DNA from: a virus
Virus record (IMG/VR): IMGVR_UViG_3300021373_000997
Location: 1 to 39,333 of that record
Length of the DNA: 39,333 bases
Strand: one strand, 5' to 3'
The notes beneath the pieces were generated by a model, which did no database searches, had not been told where the DNA came from, and was given only the letters and a program-made list of their open reading frames with translations. Below, piece by piece: positions 128 to 24,650 of the stretch. Numbering within the stretch: the stretch's first letter is position 1; every line of letters begins with the position of its first letter. The translations under genes and the position numbers were made by a program.

Positions 128-1586
128 TGTAACAAATGGGGATTTCTCAGACGGAACTAATGGCTTTTCAGCTTTAAATACTGACATTTCAATCTCTAAC
201 GTATCTGAAGAGTTGCAAGCTGTTAGTACAGCGACATCTGGCGTATTAGTGGTAGGCGGTGTTTCAGTAACTGTTGGAAAGATATATGTTTTCAGTGCGG
301 AGTCTACTTCAAGCACAATCAACCACAGGGTTCGGCTAGGTACTTCAAGCGCAGGTAGTCAGATACACAACTTCCCTGCTTCATCTACACCTACGGTATT
401 TCGGCACGTCTTTGTAGCGACTACAGACATAGTTTATGTTTATTTGAGAAATGATGTTGCTGGTACTGTCAAGTGGGACAACGTAACTCTCAAAGAAGTC
501 TTATTCGATCAATCAGACGGCACCCTAACGCTCTTCGAGCATCCCACTAACATCCCCCGTGTAGAGTACGATGCAGACGGTAACAGGCTGGGTTTGCTGG
601 TGGAGGAAGCTAGGACTAATCTGGTTACTTATAGTGAGGACTTTACGGACGCTAGCTGGGAAACAGTCGGAACTAAAGTGCCTAATTCTGCTACATCACC
701 AACAGGCGAAAATAACGCATCATTGTTAAGCGTCAATTATTTAGAAATTCGTCCATCTGTAGTTAGCGGAACACAATATACATATTCTATTTTTGTAAAG
801 GGATTAACAGATTTTACTCCGCAGATTATTGCTACAGGAACCTCTTTTCCGAACACACAAGCAAATTTTGATTTAAGTGACGGCACGGTTACGTCTACTA
901 CTGCGGAAGACGCAACAATAAAAGATTGCGGAAATGGTTGGTTTAGGATTTCAATAACGGAAACAGCTACAGCCACAGATAGCACTTCGCGTCTTCGTTT
1001 GTTTTGCGAGCAAGCATATATTTTTGGCGCTCAACTCGAAACAGGTAGTTTCCCCACAAGCTACATCAAGACTACAGGAAGCACAGCAACACGCTCTGCC
1101 GATGTAGCGTCTATCCCCGTGGCTGACTTTGGGTATAACCACAAAGAAGGTACTATTTTCGCGGAATTCTCAGGACAGTTTAATGAGAGCGGGACACTAT
1201 TTCCGCGCCCTTATGAGCTGAGCGGCGGGAATTCTAGCAATGACAGGGTTACAGTTTATTTTGCTGAATCTAACGGGAACTTGGCGGCTGAAGTTAGAAA
1301 TGGCGGAGTTCAATCGGCGGGGCTTGTGTTGCAAGCTGGTGTTTCCAGTGACTTTTCAGCAATTAAAACCGCCTTCGCCTTCAAGGCAGACGACTTTGCC
1401 GCAACGGAAGATGGTGATACACCTGTAACTGATACGGCTGGAACTTTCACGCCTTCGACACCACGAGACGAACTTGCTCTGATGGCAACTGTAACTGGCA
1501 GTCAAACTCTTAATGGACATCTTAAGTCCATCAAATACTACCCACGTCGCCTGACTAACGCACAACTACAGGACATCACATCATGA
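33..1586 (+). CDS. Tail fibre / receptor-binding protein, allele A (carbohydrate-binding and LamG-like modules)
   Basis: A 517-residue protein. I start it at ATG 33, 8 nt after GGAG, because the GTG at 24 lies inside the end of the preceding gene. The N-terminal 30 residues are identical to those of the fibre at 37135. A first beta-rich module (about 30-155) begins ELVTNGDF and ends WDNVTLKEV, the pattern of phage carbohydrate-binding modules. A second (about 190-355) begins RTNLVTYSEDF and ends FGAQLETGSFPTSYI followed by TRSADVAS. The C-terminus (to YYPRRLTNAQLQD) looks like a LamG/concanavalin domain. It probably binds a host surface glycan. It overlaps the next gene by 4 nt (ATGA). Compared with allele B the middle is diverged while the ends are conserved, as expected for a receptor-binding protein under diversifying selection. 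Confidence 0.75.
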   Translation: MTKQFSNYSDLITFTRASGGHALRPVSYGDELVTNGDFSDGTNGFSALNTDISISNVSEELQAVSTATSGVLVVGGVSVTVGKIYVFSAESTSSTINHRVRLGTSSAGSQIHNFPASSTPTVFRHVFVATTDIVYVYLRNDVAGTVKWDNVTLKEVLFDQSDGTLTLFEHPTNIPRVEYDADGNRLGLLVEEARTNLVTYSEDFTDASWETVGTKVPNSATSPTGENNASLLSVNYLEIRPSVVSGTQYTYSIFVKGLTDFTPQIIATGTSFPNTQANFDLSDGTVTSTTAEDATIKDCGNGWFRISITETATATDSTSRLRLFCEQAYIFGAQLETGSFPTSYIKTTGSTATRSADVASIPVADFGYNHKEGTIFAEFSGQFNESGTLFPRPYELSGGNSSNDRVTVYFAESNGNLAAEVRNGGVQSAGLVLQAGVSSDFSAIKTAFAFKADDFAATEDGDTPVTDTAGTFTPSTPRDELALMATVTGSQTLNGHLKSIKYYPRRLTNAQLQDITS

Positions 1587-1984
1587 CAGAAGAAGTAATC
1601 GAAGAAGTAATCGACGCGCCAAAGGTAGACTTCTATTTACGTCTCAGCGCTGACTCAGATATGCCGACTGTACTGGCTGACTTCTACCGACAGGACTACG
1701 TAACTAACGTGGACGAGGAAGGCGTAGAAACGCAGGTAGCAGACGGAGATCCCTACCTAGTAGCTAACAGCCATGACTACGCTATCGACGTTGTGGGCGT
1801 ACTACAGGAGCCTACAGGCAACACGCTGACAGACGATGAGGGGAATGAGTATCCTGAGATGCAAGCCATGACAGGCTGGCACATTAATATTCGCCTGGTA
1901 GGTGAAGCAATGCGTGAGACTGTAGAGGCTCTGGATGCGTCACACGGCGTTACGCCTGAATCACCGCAGCGTGTATGGCTATAG
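1583..1984 (+). CDS. Conserved small protein following the tail fibre, allele A
   Basis: An acidic 133-residue protein, translationally coupled to the fibre gene by an ATGA overlap. It is clearly homologous to the 130-residue protein at 38730-39122: both share DSDMPTVL or ESDMPTVL, the block TNVDEEGVETQVADGD, a HxYAIDVVG segment, a GWHxNIRLVG block and a C-terminal HGVTPxSPxRVWL. Always next to the fibre, it could be a fibre assembly chaperone or a small virion partner, but I recognise no characterised family. The 3' end overlaps the next gene by 10 nt. Confidence 0.8.
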   Translation: MTEEVIEEVIDAPKVDFYLRLSADSDMPTVLADFYRQDYVTNVDEEGVETQVADGDPYLVANSHDYAIDVVGVLQEPTGNTLTDDEGNEYPEMQAMTGWHINIRLVGEAMRETVEALDASHGVTPESPQRVWL

Positions 1985-2178
1985 ATGATCGAGAATATTG
2001 GCATCGCAAAATCGAATTTATAAATCGACAGATCGATGAGCTAGTGACCACAAGAGACTCGATATATCGACTGTTAGCGTCAAATATCACGCATCAAATT
2101 CATGATGGCGATTACGAAGTTATCGAAGAGTCGCAAGAGACTTTACCCGTAAAATGGAAGGGCAGGGACTTCACGTAA
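1975..2178 (+). CDS. Small hypothetical protein with helical N-terminus
   Basis: A 67-residue protein starting at an ATG inside the last codons of the previous gene. The N-terminal half (EYWHRKIEFINRQIDELVTTRDSIYRLL) is predicted helical with heptad-like spacing, so a short coiled coil is likely. No signal peptide or membrane segment is visible. It has no counterpart after fibre allele B, so it travels with the secreted cassette that follows. Function unknown. Confidence 0.6.
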   Translation: MAIDDREYWHRKIEFINRQIDELVTTRDSIYRLLASNITHQIHDGDYEVIEESQETLPVKWKGRDFT

Positions 2179-2188
2179 GGGACGGCAG

Positions 2189-2743
2189 ATGAGCATAAAA
2201 TGGCAGGGATTGTTCTTACTGACATTGCTGCCGTTCGCAGTAAATGCACAAGAACCTATTGTTACTGAGTCCACCACTACTAGCACTGTAACCACCAAAG
2301 GCGACATGACTACAAGAGTAGAGTCGCCTCCTCCTACCGCAATAGCCCCTCAAATTATATCTAACAGCAATTCAGATCTCTGTACCGTGGGTGTCGCTGG
2401 TGCTGTTCAAACGCAGATCTTAGGCATATCCGCTGGATCTACTGTCAGAGACATGAACTGTGAGAAGCTGAAGAACGCTAAGGTGCTCTACGACATGGGC
2501 ATGAAGGTCGCTGCTGTAAGTGTGATGTGCCAAGACGAGCGGGTATTCAAAGCCATGATGAACGCAGGAACGCCATGTCCATATGACGGACTCATTGGTG
2601 ATGCTGCAAAGCTCGCCTGGGAAACTGACACTGCCAATCAACAAGAGCTTGAAGTAAAAACAGGCATGGAGAGTTTGGATGAAAGGGAGATCGCTGGGGC
2701 TTCTGGCTTCTTTGGTGTTCTGCTCGCCCTACTGCTTATCTAA
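2189..2743 (+). CDS. Sec-exported cysteine-containing protein with hydrophobic C-terminus
   Basis: A 184-residue protein. The N-terminus is a textbook signal peptide: a lysine, a hydrophobic LFLLTLLPFAV core and a VNA|Q cleavage site. A Thr/Ser/Pro-rich linker (about 22-60) follows, then a compact domain with four cysteines (in DLCT, MNCEK, VMCQD and TPCPY), which in the periplasm could form two disulfides. The last residues (FFGVLLALLLI) are strongly hydrophobic and could anchor the protein in a membrane. From memory, proteins of this pattern recur without known function in marine phages; I could not check this. It heads the exported cassette and overlaps the next gene by 65 bp. Confidence 0.8.
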   Translation: MSIKWQGLFLLTLLPFAVNAQEPIVTESTTTSTVTTKGDMTTRVESPPPTAIAPQIISNSNSDLCTVGVAGAVQTQILGISAGSTVRDMNCEKLKNAKVLYDMGMKVAAVSVMCQDERVFKAMMNAGTPCPYDGLIGDAAKLAWETDTANQQELEVKTGMESLDEREIAGASGFFGVLLALLLI

Positions 2744-3548
2744 CCCCGTTACCTATGGGGCTACAGGCAATGCGGCGCAGGACGGTCTTAACTGGGTTAT
2801 GTCGCAGGTACTTCCTAATGCTGCGGGCCTTTCTGTGAATGGTGTCATCTATCAGTACACGGCTGTCAAAGAGACAGAGGACGACATGATTGTCTATGTT
2901 CAAAACGAGAATGCTGAGGGTGATGGTTACATCTTCCGTGAAGTCGATGATTGGTCTGGTTTGCCTAGTGAGACCATTAACAAACTCGTTTCAGTCAATA
3001 ACATACCGATCAGTGCATGGGGTGACGGCTCTATCGAGGTTGAGGGCAAGGGTTTTGTGGAAGATCCCAATGTCGTTTATACCTATAAGATTGATTCTTG
3101 TTACGACGCTCAGGCTGATCCCTCATGTCCAGGCTACGTCCCTCCCATCGAGTTGCCAGAAACAGAAGTGATTGATATTTACGATGCACTTGAGGATCAA
3201 GCCGTACTAGATGCGACAGAAGAGACAGATCCTGAGCTTTATGACAGAGACAAGAAACGCCAAAGGGAGGTAAAGGAAAGCCCTGACGAGCGATTAGAGG
3301 CGGCTTTGGCGGCGACTGAGAACGCATTGACAATGGCGGCGGCTGCAACGCAGGACGCTATGCTGATGAGCATGAGTCGGTTAGAGACTTTAAATCCTTA
3401 CTATCGTGCTGATATTCGAGGCGGGGTTTATCCAGAAACTCTGCAATTGCCTGTAAGTGATATACCTGACAACAAGGCTGGTTTACGTAATGGGCTGGCA
3501 CAACAGATTCTTCATGAGAAAATGGTGAACAGCCAATATGGAAAGTAA
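2679..3548 (+). CDS. Sec-exported protein with C-terminal helical region
   Basis: A 289-residue protein with a signal peptide (MKGR, then LGLLASLVF, likely cut near CLS|NP). ATG 2679 has GGAG 7 nt upstream. The region to about 150 looks beta-rich and contains a Cys pair (SCYDAQADPSC). Residues 155-235 are acidic then Ala-rich and helical (LEAALAATENALTMAAAATQDA), likely a coiled coil. The C-terminus is short and basic. The signal peptide is encoded in the same bases as the hydrophobic C-terminus of the previous gene in another frame. Function unknown; the setting suggests an envelope or surface role during infection, or a secreted virion-associated factor. Confidence 0.8.
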   Translation: MKGRSLGLLASLVFCSPYCLSNPVTYGATGNAAQDGLNWVMSQVLPNAAGLSVNGVIYQYTAVKETEDDMIVYVQNENAEGDGYIFREVDDWSGLPSETINKLVSVNNIPISAWGDGSIEVEGKGFVEDPNVVYTYKIDSCYDAQADPSCPGYVPPIELPETEVIDIYDALEDQAVLDATEETDPELYDRDKKRQREVKESPDERLEAALAATENALTMAAAATQDAMLMSMSRLETLNPYYRADIRGGVYPETLQLPVSDIPDNKAGLRNGLAQQILHEKMVNSQYGK

Positions 3549-3558
3549 GGGGACAACA

Positions 3559-4056
3559 ATGAAAGCTAAAATCATAGCAAGTGCTACGGTCATCATTTGT
3601 GCGCCAGCTATTGCAGAAGAGACCATCATTATGGGTAACGTAGAATCTAAGTGCGTCATCAACACTGATACCACTGGCGTCTATGGCAACCCGATTGCTG
3701 GAAAGCTCAGTACATCCACAGCGGATGGTGGCGTCGAGCCTGTCATTCGTTATGACGTGGCATTAGGGGGGTCTTATACAGCGCGTATCGTTGCGCCTAA
3801 TAGCTTTTCCTCATCGCCTACACTTACTGATACCGTTTTCTGGGAAGGATCATCCTCAGTCAAAGAAGTGTCAGACAGTCTTATGGCGGATTATGACGCT
3901 AACGCTGTGACTTACGAATACACCACAGAGTATGACTTACACACTGCTGGTACGACATGGTTCAGCGTCAGCAGTCTTGCTGAGTATGGATTTGGTAAGG
4001 CATATCCTGCAGGTGAATATCGTGCTGTCGTGATCGCGGAGTGCATCGCTAACTAA
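3559..4056 (+). CDS. Sec-exported pilin-like / spore-coat-U-like protein
   Basis: A 165-residue protein from ATG 3559 (AAGGGGAC upstream). The signal peptide ends AIA|EE. The mature part looks all-beta, with one Cys near the start (SKCVIN) and one five residues from the end (AECIAN), the layout of fimbrial adhesin and spore-coat-U (SCPU) domains, in which a disulfide ties the first strand to the last. The C-terminal strand pattern YPAGEYRAVVIAEC fits that family. The next gene resembles a PapD-type chaperone, which strengthens the reading. The SCPU assignment is inference from pattern; export is well supported. Confidence 0.65.
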   Translation: MKAKIIASATVIICAPAIAEETIIMGNVESKCVINTDTTGVYGNPIAGKLSTSTADGGVEPVIRYDVALGGSYTARIVAPNSFSSSPTLTDTVFWEGSSSVKEVSDSLMADYDANAVTYEYTTEYDLHTAGTTWFSVSSLAEYGFGKAYPAGEYRAVVIAECIAN

Positions 4057-4442
4057 TGAGGCGAGTGGTTGTAGTAATAGCTTGTCTTTGGAGTAGCGTA
4101 AGCACCGCGCATGAGATGCTGCCATCGCATCCGCAGTTGCGCCCATCTTACGTGTCAGGTGTTTTGCAGACTCAGATGCACTTATTCAATAAGCGGCAGG
4201 ACGTTGAGTACTATGAGATAGCTGTGTTTGATGAGGACTTCAGACCTGTACCCTTTGTTACGGGTTATCGGGTCATTCGATTGCAGTATTTAGAACAGCT
4301 CAAGTTCGATGTTTATGTGTTAGCAGATGACGCTGATCGTGCGGAGTACATATGCTCGAGGTCAAAACTGAGGGGAAATGGTTCTAATGGTGCAATGGTT
4401 GCCTCTAGGATTTGCTCACGGTTTGGAGACATAGCACGGTGA
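4056..4442 (+). CDS. Sec-exported PapD-like (pilus-chaperone-like) single-domain protein
   Basis: A 128-residue protein coupled to the previous gene by TAATG. The signal peptide MRRVVVVIACLWSSVSTA is followed by H. The mature domain resembles the N-terminal immunoglobulin domain of fimbrial chaperones: a strand with an Asn (MHLFNKR), then YYEIAVFDEDFRPVPF, then a basic VIRLQYLEQLKFDVYVL strand. It lacks the second PapD domain, so it would be a minimal chaperone or a PapD-fold structural protein. Two late cysteines (YICSRS, SRICSR) could pair. It lies directly after a pilin-like gene, as in chaperone-usher operons, but no usher gene is present. Confidence 0.6.
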   Translation: MRRVVVVIACLWSSVSTAHEMLPSHPQLRPSYVSGVLQTQMHLFNKRQDVEYYEIAVFDEDFRPVPFVTGYRVIRLQYLEQLKFDVYVLADDADRAEYICSRSKLRGNGSNGAMVASRICSRFGDIAR

Positions 4443-4858
4443 GATGCTTGGCTATCATGCTATTGTTTTTTTGTGCTTCTGCTATCGCACAGAACAGCTC
4501 GTTGAACCTACAGCTCCCTAGCGGCCCTACAAGTTATCAATCTGACAAGATCAGAAAGGGCGACATGGATTGTCAAAATGCTGTGGGTGGCGGTATGAAC
4601 TTAGAGTTTGGCGTCACTGGGATCATTAATAACGCCACGGGGCCATTTGATAATTATGACCCTATGTATCCTGAGCGCAAGGATGTGGGTGTATACGCTC
4701 GGATAGTGATCCCTCTGGATGGGCCAGAAGAGCGGATTAACTGCAACACCTTGTACCAACTGCTGTTAGAGAAAGAGAGATTAGAGGTGCAACGGCTAAG
4801 AGCAGAGCTACGCAATTTGCAGAGCCTACAGCAAGGTGAGGGCGGGTTTGAGAATTAA
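4439..4858 (+). CDS. Sec-exported small protein with C-terminal coiled coil
   Basis: A 139-residue protein starting at GTG 4439, which overlaps the previous stop as GTGA. The signal peptide is MRCLAIMLLFFCASAIA|Q. The mature part has a glycine-rich central stretch (NAVGGGMNLEFGVTGIINN), a DVGVYARIVIPLDGP strand and a Cys in RINCNTLY, and ends in a heptad-rich helix (LLLEKERLEVQRLRAELRNLQSLQQ). It is the fifth exported protein in a row. From memory, similar proteins occur in marine phages; function unknown. Confidence 0.75.
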   Translation: MRCLAIMLLFFCASAIAQNSSLNLQLPSGPTSYQSDKIRKGDMDCQNAVGGGMNLEFGVTGIINNATGPFDNYDPMYPERKDVGVYARIVIPLDGPEERINCNTLYQLLLEKERLEVQRLRAELRNLQSLQQGEGGFEN

Positions 4859-5370
4859 TGGAAGACCTGGAGAACATTGATGATCACGTAAAGGCTGCAG
4901 CAAAGCATGTGAAAGGCATGTCGTGGGGTGCTCGTATAGCGGCGGTCATGGGTCTGAGTAGCATAATCGGCACGTTATACGCTGGCTTTCTCATGTATCA
5001 GAAGGTGGAAGAAATCGCCAGCTTAGATTTAGGCGCTTATCAACAGCAGATGGAAGTCATGGATGCGAAGGTTACGGAGGCCGTTGATTATTCACGCGAC
5101 ATCAAGAATGGCTTGCGCGATGATATACTTAGGATCGAACAGCAGGCGGATCGGACGGAAGATTTAGTCCGCAGTAGCACTCGGGAGATACGTGATGCTA
5201 TGGATGTCATGCAGAAAGATACGCGAGAGATGATAGATGCCGCTGACGAGCGGTTTGAAACGCGCCGTGAGCAACTACGCACGTCACAGGATCAGGATAT
5301 TAAGGAACTGGAAGAGCGCTTGGAGGCGTTAGTCCAGAGAGCGTTAGACAACCCATTAGCGGATAAGTGA
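4858..5370 (+). CDS. Single-pass membrane protein with long coiled coil
   Basis: A 170-residue protein coupled by TAATG. A single membrane helix lies at about 28-48 (AAVMGLSSIIGTLYAGFLMY). The rest is highly charged and heptad-rich (residues 60-160, many Glu/Arg/Asp), a long coiled coil. The N-terminus is acidic without a cleavable signal. The topology, a short N-tail and long helical domain, resembles spanin-like or membrane-organising phage proteins, but no lipobox or second component is visible. Its position just before holin and lysozyme makes a lysis accessory role possible. Confidence 0.7.
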   Translation: MEDLENIDDHVKAAAKHVKGMSWGARIAAVMGLSSIIGTLYAGFLMYQKVEEIASLDLGAYQQQMEVMDAKVTEAVDYSRDIKNGLRDDILRIEQQADRTEDLVRSSTREIRDAMDVMQKDTREMIDAADERFETRREQLRTSQDQDIKELEERLEALVQRALDNPLADK

Positions 5371-5555
5371 TGAACACAGCAGAAGAAGCATTGAAACGAA
5401 TTGAGATCCATGAGGCTGAGTGCAAACTAATGCGCGAGATGATTGAAAAGCGCTTGGATCAAGGTGGCCTACGATTTAATAAGCTAGAGCGCATGATCAT
5501 GGCTATGTATCCATTCATTATCGCCTGCTTAGGCGCAGTGGAGTATTTCGCATGA
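5370..5555 (+). CDS. Small coiled-coil/membrane protein (homologue at 39126)
   Basis: A 61-residue protein starting at ATG 5370, overlapping the previous stop as TGATG. The N-terminal two thirds are helical and charged (EEALKRIEIHEAECKLMREMI); the C-terminal 15 residues (MYPFIIACLGAVEYF) form a short membrane segment. It aligns along its length with 39126-39323 (shared EAL..IE.HE.EC, LDQ...RF..LE, AV..FA). In allele B this gene follows the fibre partner directly, which shows where the secreted cassette is inserted or lost. Probably part of the lysis module. Confidence 0.75.
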   Translation: MNTAEEALKRIEIHEAECKLMREMIEKRLDQGGLRFNKLERMIMAMYPFIIACLGAVEYFA

Positions 5556-6028
5556 AGTTTGAAAACATCAAAGGATTGATCGGAGATCTTGCGCCTACTC
5601 TTGGCGCGGCTCTTGGTGGGCCTGTAGGTGGTGCTGCGGCTACTATGCTGGCTGATGTGTTGGGTTGTGATCCCACGCCTCAGAAGATAGAGAAAGCGTT
5701 GCAACAGGCTACCCCTGAGCAATTAGCCGAGATCAAAAAAGCTGAGCTTGACTTCGAAGTCAGAATGAAAGAGCTTGAAGTTGATGTCTTCGCGTTAGAA
5801 ACGAAGGATATACAACATGCAAGGGATTCTTTCTCAGAAGATTGGACGGCAAGGGCGATTGCCATTATGTCTATCTTGCTCTTTGGTGGCTATGTTTTGC
5901 TCGTTACTCTCCAGCCTGCTGATGACAACGACCTCAATGTCGTTAACCTGGTGCTGGGTTATCTCGGGGGCATCGTGTCTTCTGTGGTGAGTTTTTACTT
6001 TGGTGCTAGTAAGTCGGGGGGCAAATGA
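5552..6028 (+). CDS. Holin, GTA-type 3TM family
   Basis: A 158-residue protein overlapping the previous gene by ATGA. The N-terminus is Gly/Ala-rich (LAPTLGAALGGPVGGAAATML), then a charged helical middle (about 45-95), then two clear membrane helices (about 102-122, AIAIMSILLFGGYVLLVTL; and 130-152, VVNLVLGYLGGIVSSVVSFYFG) and a short SKSGGK tail. This is the architecture of the 3TM holins of gene transfer agents and many marine phages. It would open the inner membrane so that the lysozyme encoded next, which has no signal peptide, can reach the wall. Confidence 0.8.
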   Translation: MKFENIKGLIGDLAPTLGAALGGPVGGAAATMLADVLGCDPTPQKIEKALQQATPEQLAEIKKAELDFEVRMKELEVDVFALETKDIQHARDSFSEDWTARAIAIMSILLFGGYVLLVTLQPADDNDLNVVNLVLGYLGGIVSSVVSFYFGASKSGGK

Positions 6029-6444
6029 GCGAATTAATTGAACAGTTGAGAAGGCACGAGGGCGTAGAAACGCACGTCTATAAATGCACAGCGGGCTTTG
6101 AGACCATCGGTGTCGGTCGTAATATCTCTGCGTCTGGCTTGGGTCTTAGCGCCGACGAAATTGACTACCTGCTACAAAACGATATCAATCGGTGTGTACG
6201 TGAGCTTGCGTATGCGCTGGATTGGTTCTCTAGCCTAGATGGTGTGAGACAAGACGCTATGGTTAATCTCTGCTTTAACCTTGGTCTAAGCCGTCTCATG
6301 CAGTTTAAGCTAGCCTTAGATGCACTGGAGCGTGGTGAGTACCATAGAGCCGCTGCAGAGTTCCTAGACAGCCGATGGGCCAAGCAAGTTGGCAACCGAG
6401 CCATCGAAGTCGCGCACATGATCCGCATGGGCGAATATCCCTAA
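6025..6444 (+). CDS. Endolysin, T4-type lysozyme (GH24 muramidase)
   Basis: A 139-residue muramidase coupled to the holin by an ATGA overlap. It cleaves the glycan backbone of peptidoglycan at lysis. Catalytic signature: Glu12 (RRHEG), eight residues, Cys21 (YKCTAG), five residues, Thr27 (ETIGVGR). This is the known E-8aa-D/C-5aa-T form, with Cys in the place of T4 lysozyme Asp20. No signal-anchor-release N-terminus or signal peptide is seen, so export depends on the holin. Length is slightly under the 164 residues of T4 lysozyme. It is the last gene before the intergenic control region. Confidence 0.92.
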   Translation: MSELIEQLRRHEGVETHVYKCTAGFETIGVGRNISASGLGLSADEIDYLLQNDINRCVRELAYALDWFSSLDGVRQDAMVNLCFNLGLSRLMQFKLALDALERGEYHRAAAEFLDSRWAKQVGNRAIEVAHMIRMGEYP

Positions 6445-6458
6445 GTTCCACGTGGAAC
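6445..6458. promoter_or_regulatory. parS-like perfect 14-bp palindrome
   Basis: GTTCCACGTGGAAC, a perfect inverted repeat starting at the base after the lysozyme stop codon. With its flanks (a at 6444, a at 6459) it matches 15 of 16 positions of the bacterial ParB site form TGTTCCACGTGGAACA. It could recruit host ParB or a phage regulator with the same core. The palindrome is seen directly; the function is inference. Confidence 0.5.
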
Positions 6459-6475
6459 ACATCTAAACAAATCTG

Positions 6476-6504
6476 TTGACAACATAAATGTGTTGTAGTT
6501 TACT
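6476..6504 (+). promoter_or_regulatory. Sigma70-type promoter for the early/replication operon
   Basis: A perfect -35 TTGACA (6476-6481), a 17-bp spacer and a -10 TTTACT (6499-6504), giving a start near 6511. A strong AAGGAGGAG Shine-Dalgarno and ATG 6531 follow. This would drive the uninterrupted run of genes from 6531 to about 14244. The -35 is consensus and the -10 matches 4 of 6. Confidence 0.7.
6479..6496. promoter_or_regulatory. Operator-like inverted repeat overlapping the early promoter
   Basis: ACAACA-N6-TGTTGT, perfect arms of 6 bp, covering the 3' half of the -35 box and most of the spacer. A dimeric helix-turn-helix repressor bound here would block RNA polymerase. The Cro-like protein encoded at 8686-8889 is a candidate ligand; this link is inference. 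Confidence 0.5.
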
Positions 6505-6530
6505 CGTCCTGTCACAAGGAGGAGTTGACT

Positions 6531-6848
6531 ATGAACGACAGAAGAAGAGCCAGGCTTAAAAAGATCATGAAGCAATTTGAAGAGCTTTATGAGTTGTTTG
6601 ATGAGCTATGGGATGAGGAAGATGCTGCCGTGGATGCGTACCCAGAGAATCTACAAAACACGGCTCGGTTCGACGATATGCAAGCTGACCTTGCAATGAT
6701 CAGTGAAGCAGGAAGAAATCTCCAATTGTGCGAAGAGGCGCTACACACGGCAAAAAACAGGCTCGACAATGCTCTCGATGACATGGACTTGTGTATGAAC
6801 AAGGGAATGTTTTACACGCGCAACAAAAATGAAGAGGGCGATTCATGA
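6531..6848 (+). CDS. Hypothetical acidic helical protein, first early gene
   Basis: A 105-residue protein from ATG 6531, 6 nt after AAGGAGGAG. The in-frame TTG at 6525 is too close to the Shine-Dalgarno to be preferred. The N-terminus is basic (DRRRARLKKIMKQ), the rest very acidic (LWDEEDAAVDAYPE) and helical, consistent with a small cytoplasmic coiled-coil protein. As the first product of a strong early promoter it may be a host-takeover factor; I recognise no family. Confidence 0.7.
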   Translation: MNDRRRARLKKIMKQFEELYELFDELWDEEDAAVDAYPENLQNTARFDDMQADLAMISEAGRNLQLCEEALHTAKNRLDNALDDMDLCMNKGMFYTRNKNEEGDS

Positions 6849-7045
6849 GCTTTGAGCATCACGTTGTAATGCAAATGATCGAGTCTATAGACGCGATAGA
6901 GAGCCTGCTGGATAACTGGCAGTTGTTGTACGACGAGGAGACGGAAGATGAGCGCATTCAGTGGAGATTGAGTGTGATGTCTAGTGCCGAGGCTTTTTGC
7001 TGGCACGCGCGTCAAGAGCTTAAGACGCTGCACGATGCCCTTTAA
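6845..7045 (+). CDS. Small acidic hypothetical early protein
   Basis: A 66-residue protein joined to the previous gene by an ATGA overlap. It is all-helical in appearance and acidic (LLYDEETEDERIQW), with a His/Trp-containing C-terminal helix (FCWHARQELKTLHDAL). No motif recognised. Placement in the tightly packed early operon supports it as a real gene. Confidence 0.65.
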   Translation: MSFEHHVVMQMIESIDAIESLLDNWQLLYDEETEDERIQWRLSVMSSAEAFCWHARQELKTLHDAL

Positions 7046-20079: not shown

Positions 20080-21576
20080 ATGGGTTTATTTGACAGGCTC
20101 ACTGGAAAAAAAGCAGAAACGACTGAGAAAACTAAGGTTTTCAAGCGTTCTTATCACGCGGCGAGCACTGGACGCTTGTTTGCGGATTATGTTGACTCTC
20201 AACGATCTCCAGATAGTGAATTACACCCTGTCATCACTCGTATGCGGGCCAGATCGCGTGATTTGGCGAGAAATAACGAGTACGCACGTCGATATTTCAA
20301 TTTGCTGAAGACAAATGTTGTCGGTCAATACGGTTTTAAGCTGCAAGTTAAGGCATTAGACCCTCGTGGAGCGCTCGACACAGATGGCAATACGGCTATC
20401 GAAACAGCATTCAAGGCGTGGGGAAAGCGTGGTAATTGCACCGCAGACGGCAAAATGTCGTGGGTAGATGTGCAAAAAATGGTTATGGAAGGCTTAGCGC
20501 GTGATGGCGAGGTTTTCATCATTAAGCACAGAGGAAATAGCTTCCATGATAGCTTCACTTTGGAGTTTATTGAGCCAGATCAGGTCGATGAAGAGAAGAA
20601 CGAGCGTTTAGACAACGGGCGCGAGATTCGTATGGGTGTGGAGCTAGATAAGTTTCGAAGACCCGTAGCCTATCACTTACTTACCTCGCATCCTGGTGAC
20701 TATGATTTCGCTAGCATGGTGAAGTCGCCTAAGCATAAGGTAGTACCTGCCGACAAGGTGATTCATGTATTTCAGCCACTGCGTGCAGGACAGACTCGTG
20801 GCGAGCCTTGGATGTCTCCAGCGATGGCGAGCATCAAGCAACTGAATGGATGGCGTGAAGCATCTATCGTAGCTGCTCGTATGGGCGCATCTAAGATGGG
20901 TTTCTTTACTTCACCTAGCGGTGATGGGTTTGTAGCAGACGAGATGGATGGGCATGTTCCCATGATAGACGCTCAGCCTGGTACATTCCATCAGCTCCCA
21001 CAGGGTGTTGATCTAAAGACTTTTGACGTTGGCTATCCCACGAGTGAGTTTGATAGTTTCCATAAGTCGGTGTTAAAGGGTGTGGCGTCAGGTTTAGGCA
21101 TATCTTATACATCCTTAGCGAATGATTTAGAGGCGACGTCGTATAGCTCAATCCGTCAGGGTGCGCTAGAAGAGCGAGATTATTATCGCAACTGTCAGCA
21201 AATAATGATCGACCACTTCATTCGTCCCGTTTATGAGGCATGGCTTTCTGCAGCAATGGAAGTTGAGTCAGTGTTCATGCCGTTGTCTACGTTTGAGAAG
21301 TTTGCGCTAGCGTCAGAGTTCCGTGGTCGTGCTTGGAATTGGGTTGATCCCATGAAAGAGATGAATGCTGCTATCTTAGGTATGAAAAATGGTGTATTGA
21401 GTTTGCAGGATGTTGCGGCTCAGTATGGCAAAGACACTGAAGAGTTGTTGGCAGAGATTCAGCGTGACAAGAATTTAATGGAGCAGTTTAGCATTAAGTA
21501 CGCTCTTGAACCGTTTGGCGCGGTGCAGGTAGGTATTGAGCCAGACGTGATGGGAGATTCCGATGGCGAAATATAA
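20080..21576 (+). CDS. Portal protein, lambda gpB family
   Basis: A 498-residue portal (lambda gpB is 533). Signature segments: ELHPVITRMRARSRDLARNNEYARRYFNLLKTNVVGQ near the N-terminus; EFIEPDQVDE; KVIHVFQPLRAGQTRGEPWMSP; and a C-terminal YTSLANDLEATSYSSIRQGALEERDYYR, the crown/stem region of gpB portals. It forms the dodecamer at the packaging vertex. It starts 2 nt after the previous stop and overlaps the next gene by 14 nt. Confidence 0.95.
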   Translation: MGLFDRLTGKKAETTEKTKVFKRSYHAASTGRLFADYVDSQRSPDSELHPVITRMRARSRDLARNNEYARRYFNLLKTNVVGQYGFKLQVKALDPRGALDTDGNTAIETAFKAWGKRGNCTADGKMSWVDVQKMVMEGLARDGEVFIIKHRGNSFHDSFTLEFIEPDQVDEEKNERLDNGREIRMGVELDKFRRPVAYHLLTSHPGDYDFASMVKSPKHKVVPADKVIHVFQPLRAGQTRGEPWMSPAMASIKQLNGWREASIVAARMGASKMGFFTSPSGDGFVADEMDGHVPMIDAQPGTFHQLPQGVDLKTFDVGYPTSEFDSFHKSVLKGVASGLGISYTSLANDLEATSYSSIRQGALEERDYYRNCQQIMIDHFIRPVYEAWLSAAMEVESVFMPLSTFEKFALASEFRGRAWNWVDPMKEMNAAILGMKNGVLSLQDVAAQYGKDTEELLAEIQRDKNLMEQFSIKYALEPFGAVQVGIEPDVMGDSDGEI

Positions 21577-24064
21577 AGGTGAAGAAATTGATCTTAAACC
21601 AACTGAAGGAATGGTCGCAGAAGCTAAACGTGGCCTCGATTGGCGCAAAGAGCATGGTCGGGGCGGTACTGCGGTCGGTGTTGCTCGTGCTCGTGATATT
21701 GTTAATGGGCGGGAGCTTTCTGCTAGCACTGTTCGTCGGATGTATAGTTTCTTTAGCCGACATGAAGTGGATAAGCAAGGTAAAGGTTTTGACAAGGGTG
21801 AAGAAGGCTATCCAAGCGCGGGCAGGATCGCGTGGGCACTCTGGGGCGGAGACGCAGGATTCTCATTCAGCAAACGAGCAGTTAAACGACTCGACGCAAT
21901 AGACGAGAGGAGCGACGAGATGGAACTTGAAACTAGAGCAGAAGCTGACGAGCTAAAGGTCGGCGATATGGTGAGCTGGAATAGCTCGGGCGGTCGTGCG
22001 GAAGGCAAAATCAGCCGTATCGTGCGCGATGGTAGCATCGACGTTCCAGACTCTGATTTTACGATTGAGGGCACTGAGGACAACCCAGCGGCTCTAATTA
22101 CGCTTTACAGAGATGGCGAACCAACAGACCGTAAGGTCGGGCACCGTTTCTCAGCACTGACGAAAATTAGTGAGCGCATTCATCATTACGAAGATGAACA
22201 AGAGCGCCATATTAAGAACGTAACTGAGACTGAAGACTCTTACATTGTAGAGTTCGGTAAGTCAGAAGAGTCAGAAATGGCAAATGAAGAAGAGGAGGAG
22301 CGATCTATGGTAGACCCAGATTTCTCCAAGCGATCCATGTATATGGACGCATCGCCAATTAATGAAGACGAGCGCAGAGTATCTATGGCGCTTAGCTCTG
22401 AAGAGCCTGTAGAGCGCTCATTTGGCGTTGAAGTATTAGAGCATTCAGCAGAGGCAATTGACCTGAGCTTTTTGGCATCAGGTAGAGCGCCGCTTTTGCT
22501 CGACCACGACCCACAAAAACAAGTGGGTGTAATTGAATCTGTCGATCTTGACGGCTCGGCACGGCGTCTCCGTGCGACGGTACGTTTTGGAAAGAACGGA
22601 CTTGCCCGAGAAGCATTCGACGATGTTGTTGATGGCATTCGCGCAAATGTATCTATCGGATACGCTATCAACAAAATGGAACGTCAAGACAAAGACAAGT
22701 ATGTCGCTAAGTCATGGCGTCCAGTAGAAGCTAGTTTGGTCTCTATCCCAGCGGATGTCTCCGTTGGCGTTGGACGGTCGAGCGAGCCTACACCCGAACC
22801 CGTAACCATAACTGTTAAAGAGGAAACTCCTATGACAAATGAAGTAGATGTTGCGGCAATCGAGTTAGAAGCTCGTAAAGCCGCTCAAAAAGACGCAGCT
22901 CAGATCGTTGAGCTTGGTGCTCGTCACAATCAGTCAGAAATGGCCAAGCGTGCAATCGCTGAAGGTCGCTCTGTAGCTGAGTTCCGTGGCGAATTGTTGG
23001 ATGTAATCGGCTCTGAGCGTGCTCTTGAGTCGCAGGACATCGGCATGACCGATAAAGAACTGAAGAAGTTCTCTCTCGTTCGCGCTATTCACGCTCTGGC
23101 TAACCCAACTGACCGTCGTGCTCAAGAAGCTGCCGCATTCGAATTCGAGTGTTCAGAAGCTGCTTCTGCTGAGTTCGGACGTGCCGCTCAAGGGATCATG
23201 CTCCCAACAGACGTTATGCGTACTTGGAAGCGTGACCTTAACTCAGCGGATGAGGCAGATTTGTTCGGCGAAGATTATCGCGGGGCAGATTTCATCGACG
23301 TACTGCGTAACGCTTCTAGCGTAATGCAGGCGGGCGCACGTACTCTGAACGGTCTTTCAGGCGACGTCCGTATCCCTAAGAAGACAGCAGCTGCATCAGC
23401 GGCATGGATTGCTTCTGAGGGTGGAGCGGCAACTGAGTCAGAAATGACTGTGGGTAACATCGCGATGACACCGAAGACATTGGGTGCATTCACCGATGTA
23501 ACTCGTCAGTTGATGATTCAGTCGTCAATGGACGTAGAAGCTCTGATCCGTGATGACCTTGCTACAGCTATCGCTCTTGCGATTGACTTGGCTGGTCTTG
23601 AAGGCTCAGGTGCAAGCGGTCAGCCCACTGGTATCTTGAACACATCAGGTATCAATAGCGTAACTGACTTCGCTGCTGCTAACCCAACTTTCGCTGAAGT
23701 AGTCACTCTCGAGACTGCACTTGCAGAAGACAACGCATTGATGGGCAACCTTGCTTACATCTTGCCAGCGTCTATGTACGGTGCTCTAAAGACTACTGAG
23801 AAGGCGACTGGAACTGCACAGTTCGTAGTTGAGCCAGGCGGCACTGTAAACGGCCATCGTGCAATCGTTTCTAACCAAGGAACTGCTGGAAACCTTTACT
23901 TCGGTAACTTCAGCGACCTACTCGTAGGCTTCTTCGGTGGACTCGATCTGGTAGTTGATCCATACACTGCGTCAACATCGGGCACTGTCCGAGTGGTTGC
24001 ATTGCAGTCAATGGACGTTGCAGTACGTCACGCTGTTAGCTTCGCAGTCGGTAATGACGGCTAA
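21563..24064 (+). CDS. Fused frame: phage-conserved N-domain, Tudor-like domain, prohead protease and HK97-type major capsid protein
   Basis: An 833-codon frame (start ATG 21563, GGGAG upstream). Domains: 1-119, a conserved phage domain with RRMYSFFSRHEVDKQGKG and YPSAGRIAWALWGGDAG; 128-215, a Tudor/HVA1-like barrel (LKVGDMVSWNSSGG); 249-423, HK97-type prohead protease with likely catalytic His in LLLDHDP (about 315) and Ser in ANVSIGY (about 364); 424-833, the major capsid protein, with a helical delta-like N-segment then IMLPTDVMRTWKRDLN, GDVRIPKK, GLEGSGASGQPTGIL. Each domain has an internal ATG with its own Shine-Dalgarno, so separate products are likely. The order protease then capsid matches HK97 gp4-gp5. 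Confidence 0.9.
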   Translation: MAKYKGEEIDLKPTEGMVAEAKRGLDWRKEHGRGGTAVGVARARDIVNGRELSASTVRRMYSFFSRHEVDKQGKGFDKGEEGYPSAGRIAWALWGGDAGFSFSKRAVKRLDAIDERSDEMELETRAEADELKVGDMVSWNSSGGRAEGKISRIVRDGSIDVPDSDFTIEGTEDNPAALITLYRDGEPTDRKVGHRFSALTKISERIHHYEDEQERHIKNVTETEDSYIVEFGKSEESEMANEEEEERSMVDPDFSKRSMYMDASPINEDERRVSMALSSEEPVERSFGVEVLEHSAEAIDLSFLASGRAPLLLDHDPQKQVGVIESVDLDGSARRLRATVRFGKNGLAREAFDDVVDGIRANVSIGYAINKMERQDKDKYVAKSWRPVEASLVSIPADVSVGVGRSSEPTPEPVTITVKEETPMTNEVDVAAIELEARKAAQKDAAQIVELGARHNQSEMAKRAIAEGRSVAEFRGELLDVIGSERALESQDIGMTDKELKKFSLVRAIHALANPTDRRAQEAAAFEFECSEAASAEFGRAAQGIMLPTDVMRTWKRDLNSADEADLFGEDYRGADFIDVLRNASSVMQAGARTLNGLSGDVRIPKKTAAASAAWIASEGGAATESEMTVGNIAMTPKTLGAFTDVTRQLMIQSSMDVEALIRDDLATAIALAIDLAGLEGSGASGQPTGILNTSGINSVTDFAAANPTFAEVVTLETALAEDNALMGNLAYILPASMYGALKTTEKATGTAQFVVEPGGTVNGHRAIVSNQGTAGNLYFGNFSDLLVGFFGGLDLVVDPYTASTSGTVRVVALQSMDVAVRHAVSFAVGNDG
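21905..21922 (+). promoter_or_regulatory. Internal ribosome binding site and ATG (Tudor-like domain onward)
   Basis: GAGAGGAG (21905-21912), 7-nt spacer, in-frame ATG 21920. The product would start MELETRAEADELKVGD, just before the Tudor-like domain, and run 714 residues if not cut. Confidence 0.45.
22294..22309 (+). promoter_or_regulatory. Internal ribosome binding site and ATG (prohead protease start)
   Basis: GGAGG (22294-22298) in the run GAGGAGGAG, 8-nt spacer, in-frame ATG 22307. The product would begin MVDPDFSKRSM, the natural N-terminus of a HK97-type protease; the stretch to the next internal start is 175 residues, a normal protease length. Confidence 0.6.
22819..22834 (+). promoter_or_regulatory. 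Internal ribosome binding site and ATG (major capsid start)
   Basis: AAAGAGGA (22817-22824) with in-frame ATG 22832. The product MTNEVDVAAIELEARK is 410 residues, the usual size of an HK97-type capsid protein with its N-terminal delta domain. This would let capsid protein be made in excess over protease. Confidence 0.65.
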
Positions 24065-24072
24065 GATAGTAT

Positions 24073-24097
24073 CCCGCCCTTCGGGGCGGGTTTCTCT
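24073..24097 (+). terminator. Terminator-like hairpin after the capsid gene
   Basis: CCCGCCC-TTCG-GGGCGGG (24073-24090), a 7-bp stem with a UUCG tetraloop, followed by TTTCTCT. It is likely a partial terminator or an mRNA-stabilising 3' end that separates abundant capsid message from the connector and tail genes. Confidence 0.8.
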
Positions 24098-24108
24098 AAG
24101 GAGGAAGT

Positions 24109-24333
24109 ATGAAATACGAAGTAATTAAAGGTTGTGTAATCGCTGGTAAGACCCATCGCGTAGGCGATACTGTAGATCTGGAAGGACGCTTAGCTGAGTC
24201 TCTCTTGGGTATCGGTCGAATCGCTCCTGCTGATGAGTCTAAGACTGAGAATCGAGCTGTTGGTGTTGAAGGTGCAGAAGAGAAGCCAAAGACACGAAAG
24301 CGCACTACAAAGGCTAAGCCAAAGGCTGAATAA
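24109..24333 (+). CDS. Small protein between capsid and connector genes
   Basis: A 74-residue protein after AAGGAGGAAGT, a strong Shine-Dalgarno. The N-terminal 45 residues (YEVIKGCVIAGKTHRVGDTVDLEGRLAESLLGIGRI) form a small beta barrel of the type found right after capsid genes in many siphophages; the C-terminus is a Lys-rich tail (KTRKRTTKAKPK). It may be the head-completion or gpFI-like factor in this position. Exact role unknown. Confidence 0.7.
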   Translation: MKYEVIKGCVIAGKTHRVGDTVDLEGRLAESLLGIGRIAPADESKTENRAVGVEGAEEKPKTRKRTTKAKPKAE

Positions 24334-24650
24334 TGGCTGTTGAGACGCTGGATGATCGCACGTTATTGCTCGCCGATTTTGGTGTGTCATGCACTGGCAC
24401 AACATCGGGCAATGCGACAGTGACGTTTACTGCGATATATGACGCGCAGCACGCACTAGAAGAGGCGGGTGGCTTTGTGGCCTTCTCTCTCGATCAGCCG
24501 CGTCTCACTTGTGTTACCTCACAAGTATCTGCCTTAGCGGAGGGTGATACAGTGACAGTGCCTGTTAATTCAGTAAATACTGATTACACCATAAGGGTTG
24601 TTATGCCAGATGGTACGGGTATCACTGAGCTGGCGCTGGAGAAGCAATGA
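24333..24650 (+). CDS. Head-tail connector, FII-like
   Basis: A 105-residue all-beta protein coupled by TAATG. Short strands with LADFGVSCTGTTSGNATVTF and a C-terminal DYTIRVVMPDGTGITELALE resemble head-closure (lambda gpFII-like) or related Ig-type connectors. Its position between the capsid and tail-terminator genes supports the call; homology is not certain from sequence alone. Confidence 0.55.
   Translation: MAVETLDDRTLLLADFGVSCTGTTSGNATVTFTAIYDAQHALEEAGGFVAFSLDQPRLTCVTSQVSALAEGDTVTVPVNSVNTDYTIRVVMPDGTGITELALEKQ

Follow-up and report, generated by a model that had tools for sequence, protein, structure and literature searches.

The fused gene and its neighborhood

The window analyzed here is a 39,333-nucleotide stretch of marine phage DNA (IMG/VR record IMGVR_UViG_3300021373_000997). 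An ORF check gave an uninterrupted frame of 833 codons (833 amino acids) at 21563-24064. A large terminase gene, a head-tail joining gene and a lambda-family portal gene lie upstream, and a head-tail connector and tail genes follow; given these neighbors, the fused gene is part of a tailed phage head module. Its full-length start, ATG 21563, overlaps the 3′ end of the portal gene by 14 nt. The nearest named relative is that of Roseobacter phage CRP-811, with 59.8% identity across 99% of the 833-residue protein. The features of the locus are as follows.

20080..21576, + strand: portal gene (lambda family), 5′ of the fused gene and overlapping ATG 21563 (Pfam)
21563..24064, + strand: fused gene, N-domain / Tudor-like / prohead protease / delta-scaffold / HK97-type capsid (ORF, Pfam, PHROG, AlphaFold2)
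21563..21907, + strand: N-terminal helical domain, residues 1-115, phrog_2859 (PHROG, AlphaFold2)
21905..21922, + strand: Shine-Dalgarno sequence (SD) GAGAGGAG (21905-21912) and candidate internal start ATG 21920, moderately supported (SD test, relatives, folding)
21962..22105, + strand: Hva1_TUDOR-like domain, residues 134-181 (Pfam PF11160, 31.2 bits against a cut-off of 24.1)
22292..22309, + strand: SD GAGGAGG (22292-22298) and ATG 22307, within the disordered stretch between Tudor and protease, present but neither conserved nor beyond chance
22358..22762, + strand: peptidase S78 prohead protease domain, about residues 266-400 (Pfam, structural model, invariant residues)
22817..22834, + strand: SD AAAGAGGA (22817-22824) and predicted internal start ATG 22832 of a 410-residue capsid precursor, strongly supported (conservation, SD, folding)
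22850..23251, + strand: helical, scaffold-like delta region, roughly residues 430-563, presumably removed by cleavage (AlphaFold2 helices; alignment to the R4C chain)
23285..24061, + strand: HK97-type Phage_capsid domain, from residue 575 (Pfam, PHROG, NCBIfam)
24073..24090, + strand: terminator-like (intrinsic) hairpin directly 3′ of the stop codon (consensus match; the number of such matches is not above that in shuffles)

The fusion is a single open frame in all 80 IMG/VR relatives fetched with the whole protein. Two further searches using a 14-sequence alignment gave a wider set of 160 loci, and 158 of these have a single matching ORF. The exceptions are L231, with a second matching ORF, and L209, a Haematospirillum contig with a second capsid ORF. 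In the latter, a capsid-only ORF (3322-4411) directly follows the fused gene (1455-3315), with its own SD (GGAGG) and an ATG within the delta region.

Domains and linkers

The capsid assignment is firm: Phage_capsid (PF05065) matches residues 575-831 with 141.2 bits (cut-off 24.2), TIGR01554 (HK97-fold major capsid) matches with 97.9 bits (cut-off 27.5), and a phrog_617 match spans residues 264-831. For the protease, Peptidase_S78 (PF04586) matches residues 303-398 with 24.5 bits (cut-off 21), and TIGR01543 stays below its cut-off (29.6 bits against 59). Residues H315, S364 and E389 are invariant in 29 sequences; we take them to be the conserved catalytic His and Ser of S78 with an acidic residue, and predict catalysis on that assumption.

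The AlphaFold2 model of the 833-residue protein has a mean pLDDT of only 58.8, with the capsid part badly modelled, but the N-domain (pLDDT 93.7), the Tudor-like domain and the protease have confident folds. Low-confidence linkers occupy residues 116-124, 205-263 and 406-429. Met120, Met249 and Met424, encoded by ATG 21920, 22307 and 22832, each fall inside a different one of them. The first-pass annotation had described this 833-codon frame with three internal in-frame ATGs, each preceded by an SD and placed at a domain border, and the ORF check, Pfam and the AlphaFold2 linkers locate every one of these elements as it described.

The probable start at the protease-capsid border

The ATG at 22832 lies 7 nt from its SD, AAAGAGGA. 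The Met424 column is ATG in all 80 of the closest IMG/VR relatives, a count that, like the other conservation counts given here, is not made of independent cases, since the relatives share ancestry. Among 42 non-redundant rows, ATG is present in 42, and a start codon with an SD energy of -5 or lower in 41; the best other column reaches this in 16 rows. As a null for SD strength, we reshuffled the synonymous codons upstream of the ATG while holding the protein constant. The mean energy at Met424 is -7.41, against a shuffle mean of -5.13, and 0 of 200 shuffles reach the observed value. The window's own SD at 22832 is unremarkable given its codons (P=0.56), so the case for this start is based on conservation rather than on the window alone.

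More distant relatives have the same arrangement. The border ATG is found in 22 of 22 named phage relatives, whose hosts range from Synechococcus to Escherichia, Vibrio, Xanthomonas and Helicobacter; its alignment column is identical in 19, one column off in Arya and 20 columns off in VP882 and phiHAP-1. We then took 183 aligned fusion genes, of which 155 were non-redundant (<90% identity) and 154 evaluable after one without a linker (L139) was dropped. The protease/capsid linker is 34 to 112 residues long and otherwise varies so freely in sequence and length that it is unalignable, yet every one of the 154 genes has one or more in-frame ATGs in it. With 1.54 ATGs per linker on average, about 33 of the 154 would be expected by our arithmetic to lack one, and none does. 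The best SD in the linker is -5 or lower in 116/154, a strength found at 8.0% of the 2010 remaining ATGs of these genes; across 200 synonymous shuffles this share has a mean of 40.5% and a maximum of 48.7%. The other 38 linkers have no SD of that strength. In a third set of 80 loci, which overlaps the first, a Met follows the VGxGR motif by 15-20 residues in 74/74 motif-bearing loci (6 of the 80 lack the motif as written).

The mRNA around this ATG is also weakly structured. We computed local folding at 167 sites: those of the 126 rows (of 155) that share one alignment column for the ATG, and those of 41 close relatives. Between -30 and +15 nt of the junction ATG the folding energy lies at -3.9 to -5.1; outside this stretch, as far as 90 nt to each side, most values are -7.9 to -11.2. 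Folding is weaker than in 20/20 synonymous shuffles at -30, -15, 0 and +15; the position at +60 is also somewhat weakly folded (-7.11 against a null of -7.95).

By sequence comparison, then, ATG 22832 is very well supported as an internal capsid start, and it is very probable that ribosomes use this conserved second start to produce the shell protein by itself.

In the cyanophages S-CBS1, S-CBS3 and S-LBS1 the junction ATG is conserved but no SD precedes it; SDs are present at some of their other genes.

Separate protease-capsid fusion families

NCBIfam holds two families of protease-capsid fusions, NF045540 (ClpP-like) and NF045541 (prohead protease/major capsid). We searched 398 genomes of one phylum with each of them. 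The 60 loci obtained contain 36 unique ORFs with 560 residues or more; 8 without a recognised protease motif were dropped, leaving 28, with types set by short motifs. A junction ATG is present in 28/28, and its SD is -5 or lower in 27/28 (ClpP-type 7/7, S78-type 20/21), against a background of 8.7% of 355 ATGs and a shuffle mean of 56% (maximum 75%). Folding is again weakest at the junction ATG. ClpP-like and S78 proteases have unrelated folds, and the junction start therefore appears to go with the capsid module rather than with one particular protease. The core of the earlier claim for 22832 thus reaches further than the family in which it was made.

Several of the NF045541-type fusions (L356-L363, L365 and L366) have a second in-frame ATG with a strong SD some 20-60 codons past the junction start, perhaps the start of a shorter capsid form.

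The upstream candidate starts

At the N-domain/Tudor border, GAGAGGAG lies 7 nt from ATG 21920. Of the three internal starts, this is the only one whose SD, within the window alone, is unusually strong given the amino acids (P=0.0045). The Met120 column is ATG in 21 of the 75 relatives with sequence there, 5 of the 21 being a distant clade, and the SD energy at it has a mean of -5.15 against -1.35 in shuffles (0 of 200 shuffles as strong; n=10). Counting by architecture instead of by column, we found an ATG between the N-domain and the Tudor domain in 32/32 non-redundant Tudor-bearing relatives, with an SD of -5 or lower in 29/32 (shuffle mean 59%, maximum 78%). These 32 came from 167 sequences, 92 of which pass a strict N-domain motif (the other 75 being fragments or motif misses), through 49 that are non-redundant, to those with a Tudor motif. 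Folding at the Tudor-border ATG is weaker than in 20/20 shuffles. A large clade has the ATG immediately before the Tudor domain, as MTDE/MTEE/MSDQ..RAEPD, and other clades have it in differing alignment columns, which makes it a shared architectural site and not a single conserved codon. Use of ATG 21920 as a start is moderately supported, its signals exceeding chance across relatives.

The ATG at 22307 behaves differently. Its SD, GAGGAGG with a spacer of 8 nt, is stronger than any other in the window (-12.0), but such an SD is unremarkable for the peptide (P=0.33): the glutamate-rich linker yields it by chance. Only 14 of the 78 relatives with sequence there have ATG in the Met249 column, and it is absent from L022, L005, L021 and L013 although their capsid parts are 94-99% identical to the window's. 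Among 28 Tudor-bearing relatives, 25 have an ATG in the Tudor/protease linker, and 6 of these 25 have an SD of -5 or lower, compared with 35% in shuffles. We saw no folding dip at the Tudor/protease linker ATGs. On these grounds we rejected ATG 22307 as a conserved start.

The first-pass annotation had proposed that all three internal ATGs are used, giving four products. The strength of the 22307 SD speaks for this, as does the nearest clade, in which 7/7 non-redundant members have a linker ATG with an SD of -8.1 or lower, at residue 239 or 249. Set against the scattered occurrence of ATG 22307 and the chance-level SDs in the Tudor/protease linkers, four products seem unlikely. On the sequence evidence, the annotation was right about 22832, the most important start, probably right about 21920, and most likely wrong about 22307, which most relatives have lost, an outcome that the annotation itself had named as refuting.

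Met239 (22277) is an ATG with the SD GAGGAG in L004, L005, L007, L011 and L013; the window keeps the ATG with a weaker SD.

We also asked whether SD strength predicts an excess of capsid in the window, and rejected this idea. The SD energy at 22832 is -6.0, against -7.3, -8.3 and -12.0 at the other three starts; since the capsid start has the weakest SD, SD strength alone is no predictor of capsid excess here.

A proposed nested set of shell subunits

From the frame, its domains, the conserved internal start, its SD and the unstructured mRNA around it, we infer initiation, stoichiometry, co-assembly and trimming as follows. One message would give a nested, C-coterminal set of proteins from a single frame. 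Ribosomes starting at ATG 22832 would make a 410-residue capsid precursor, consisting of the delta region and the HK97-type shell domain, which builds the shell. Those starting at 21563, and probably also at 21920, would make longer forms with the protease ahead of the same capsid precursor. A few long copies could co-assemble through their capsid domain and so place the protease inside the growing prohead, where it would trim the delta region and itself off all subunits, leaving the mature capsid alone. We consider it highly probable that capsid is made in this way, mostly by internal initiation, with long copies bringing in the protease before trimming. At the level of sequence there is strong support for the annotation's proposal, as far as 22832 is concerned, of a capsid made from an internal start and a long form that takes the protease into the prohead.

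Dinoroseobacter phage R4C fits this scheme of nested starts and trimming. It has a 629-residue fusion with an internal ATG at residue 189, and the solved capsid chain of its virion (268 residues) corresponds to residues 362-629, beginning near window residue 564. The R4C paper gives 415 capsid copies (PMC10276861), and the terms "protease", "cleav" and "mass spectrometry" do not occur in its main text. Studies of virions would miss internal initiation, because maturation erases both N-termini.

For the same reason, the virion protein alone cannot separate an internal start from a gene that makes only the full-length 833-residue protein, in which case proteolysis would release all capsid by removing the N-terminal part and the linker ATG would be vestigial or belong to a cleavage motif: in R4C, the mature chain begins far 3′ of the ATG. 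The residues after the linker ATG are mostly small or polar, as a protein motif might have. We nevertheless judge exclusive full-length synthesis to be quite improbable, given the persistence of the ATG in all 154 genes amid linkers that otherwise do not align, an SD and a weakness of mRNA structure that both exceed protein-constant nulls, and the cyanophages that retain the ATG without SD-encoding residues. Least probable of the alternatives is that the capsid has an internal promoter and a transcript of its own, as herpesvirus UL26.5 does; a capsid-only product is generally needed in excess and a terminator-like hairpin follows the gene, but a scan limited to sigma-70-like promoters found none on the + strand in 20900-24400, and the SD and mRNA-structure signals indicate control of translation.

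On balance we lean toward extending the nested scheme to fusions with either an S78-type or a ClpP-type protease. Having kept the junction start, they would always be leaky, and the ratio of initiation would set the number of protease-bearing subunits per shell. The Tudor-bearing marine clade would add a second nested start (Tudor-protease-capsid), so that one gene gives three coterminal shell subunits differing in cargo.

Relation to known systems

Protease-capsid fusion as such is already known and named by NCBI. Like the window, the NF045541 and NF045540 fusions and phrog_617 have protease, delta region and HK97-type capsid in a single frame; the window adds the N-domain and the Tudor domain. 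Against NF045541 it scores 143 bits over residues 266-513, short of the cut-off of 525, which makes it a more distant family of the same architecture. The descriptions of the two NCBI families name no nested start.

In HK97, the gp4 protease and the gp5 capsid are encoded by separate genes. The window has the same protease and capsid families (matches to TIGR01543, below cut-off, and TIGR01554), here fused. In lambda, an in-frame internal start in the protease gene C yields Nu3, a C-coterminal scaffold, and the capsid gene is separate. The window shares with it a conserved in-frame internal start with a ribosome-binding signal at the protease border, and would share a protease-bearing long form and a C-coterminal short form that co-assembles. 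The nested product of lambda, however, is a scaffold without a shell domain, whereas that of the window contains Phage_capsid and would itself be the capsid, complete with a delta region. Herpesvirus UL26/UL26.5 is likewise a C-coterminal nested set with the protease confined to the long form; UL26.5 is a scaffold with its own promoter, whereas the predicted short product here is the shell protein, and the sigma-70-type scan saw no + strand promoter. The best Foldseek matches of the model are herpesvirus UL26-type proteases; the score is weak (E 2.5e-3), but S78 proteases would be expected to show this relationship in fold.

In the open-licence literature, which misses most subscription journals, we found no report of a nested capsid start, whether in searches on the fusion and on U35 peptidase or in passages of PMC12629253, PMC10276861, PMC9769972, PMC6157547, PMC11893012 and PMC2784084.

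Annotations treat a protease-capsid fusion as one major capsid protein. If a shell consisted entirely of 830-residue subunits, however, hundreds of proteases would sit inside it, a problem that the conserved internal start would resolve. It would also tell which N terminus suits capsid phylogeny, expression and virus-like particles, offer a testable rule for protease dosage, and carry the nesting of protease and scaffold seen in lambda and herpesviruses over to the shell protein itself.

Variation at the N terminus

The N-domain has no significant Foldseek match in the PDB (best E 2.2). Among the predicted phage proteins in BFVD it recurs in portal proteins, prohead proteases and XkdF-like proteins, and in Limnohabitans phage DC31 it stands at the head of a separate XkdF-type protease gene. 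The slot between N-domain and protease (21920-22306) is swapped among relatives (L025-L039, L024 and L070), holding Hva1_TUDOR, DUF5824, a stretch with a sub-threshold BRX match, or nothing recognised; DUF5824 scores 27.9 bits in L025, above its cut-off, and the BRX-like stretch occurs in L024 and L070. In Roseobacter phage CRP-823 the N-terminal part is a gene of its own (3986-4702) that overlaps the protease-capsid gene (4662-6914). The related phage CRP-821 has one fused gene, and the split in CRP-823 may be natural or a sequencing error.
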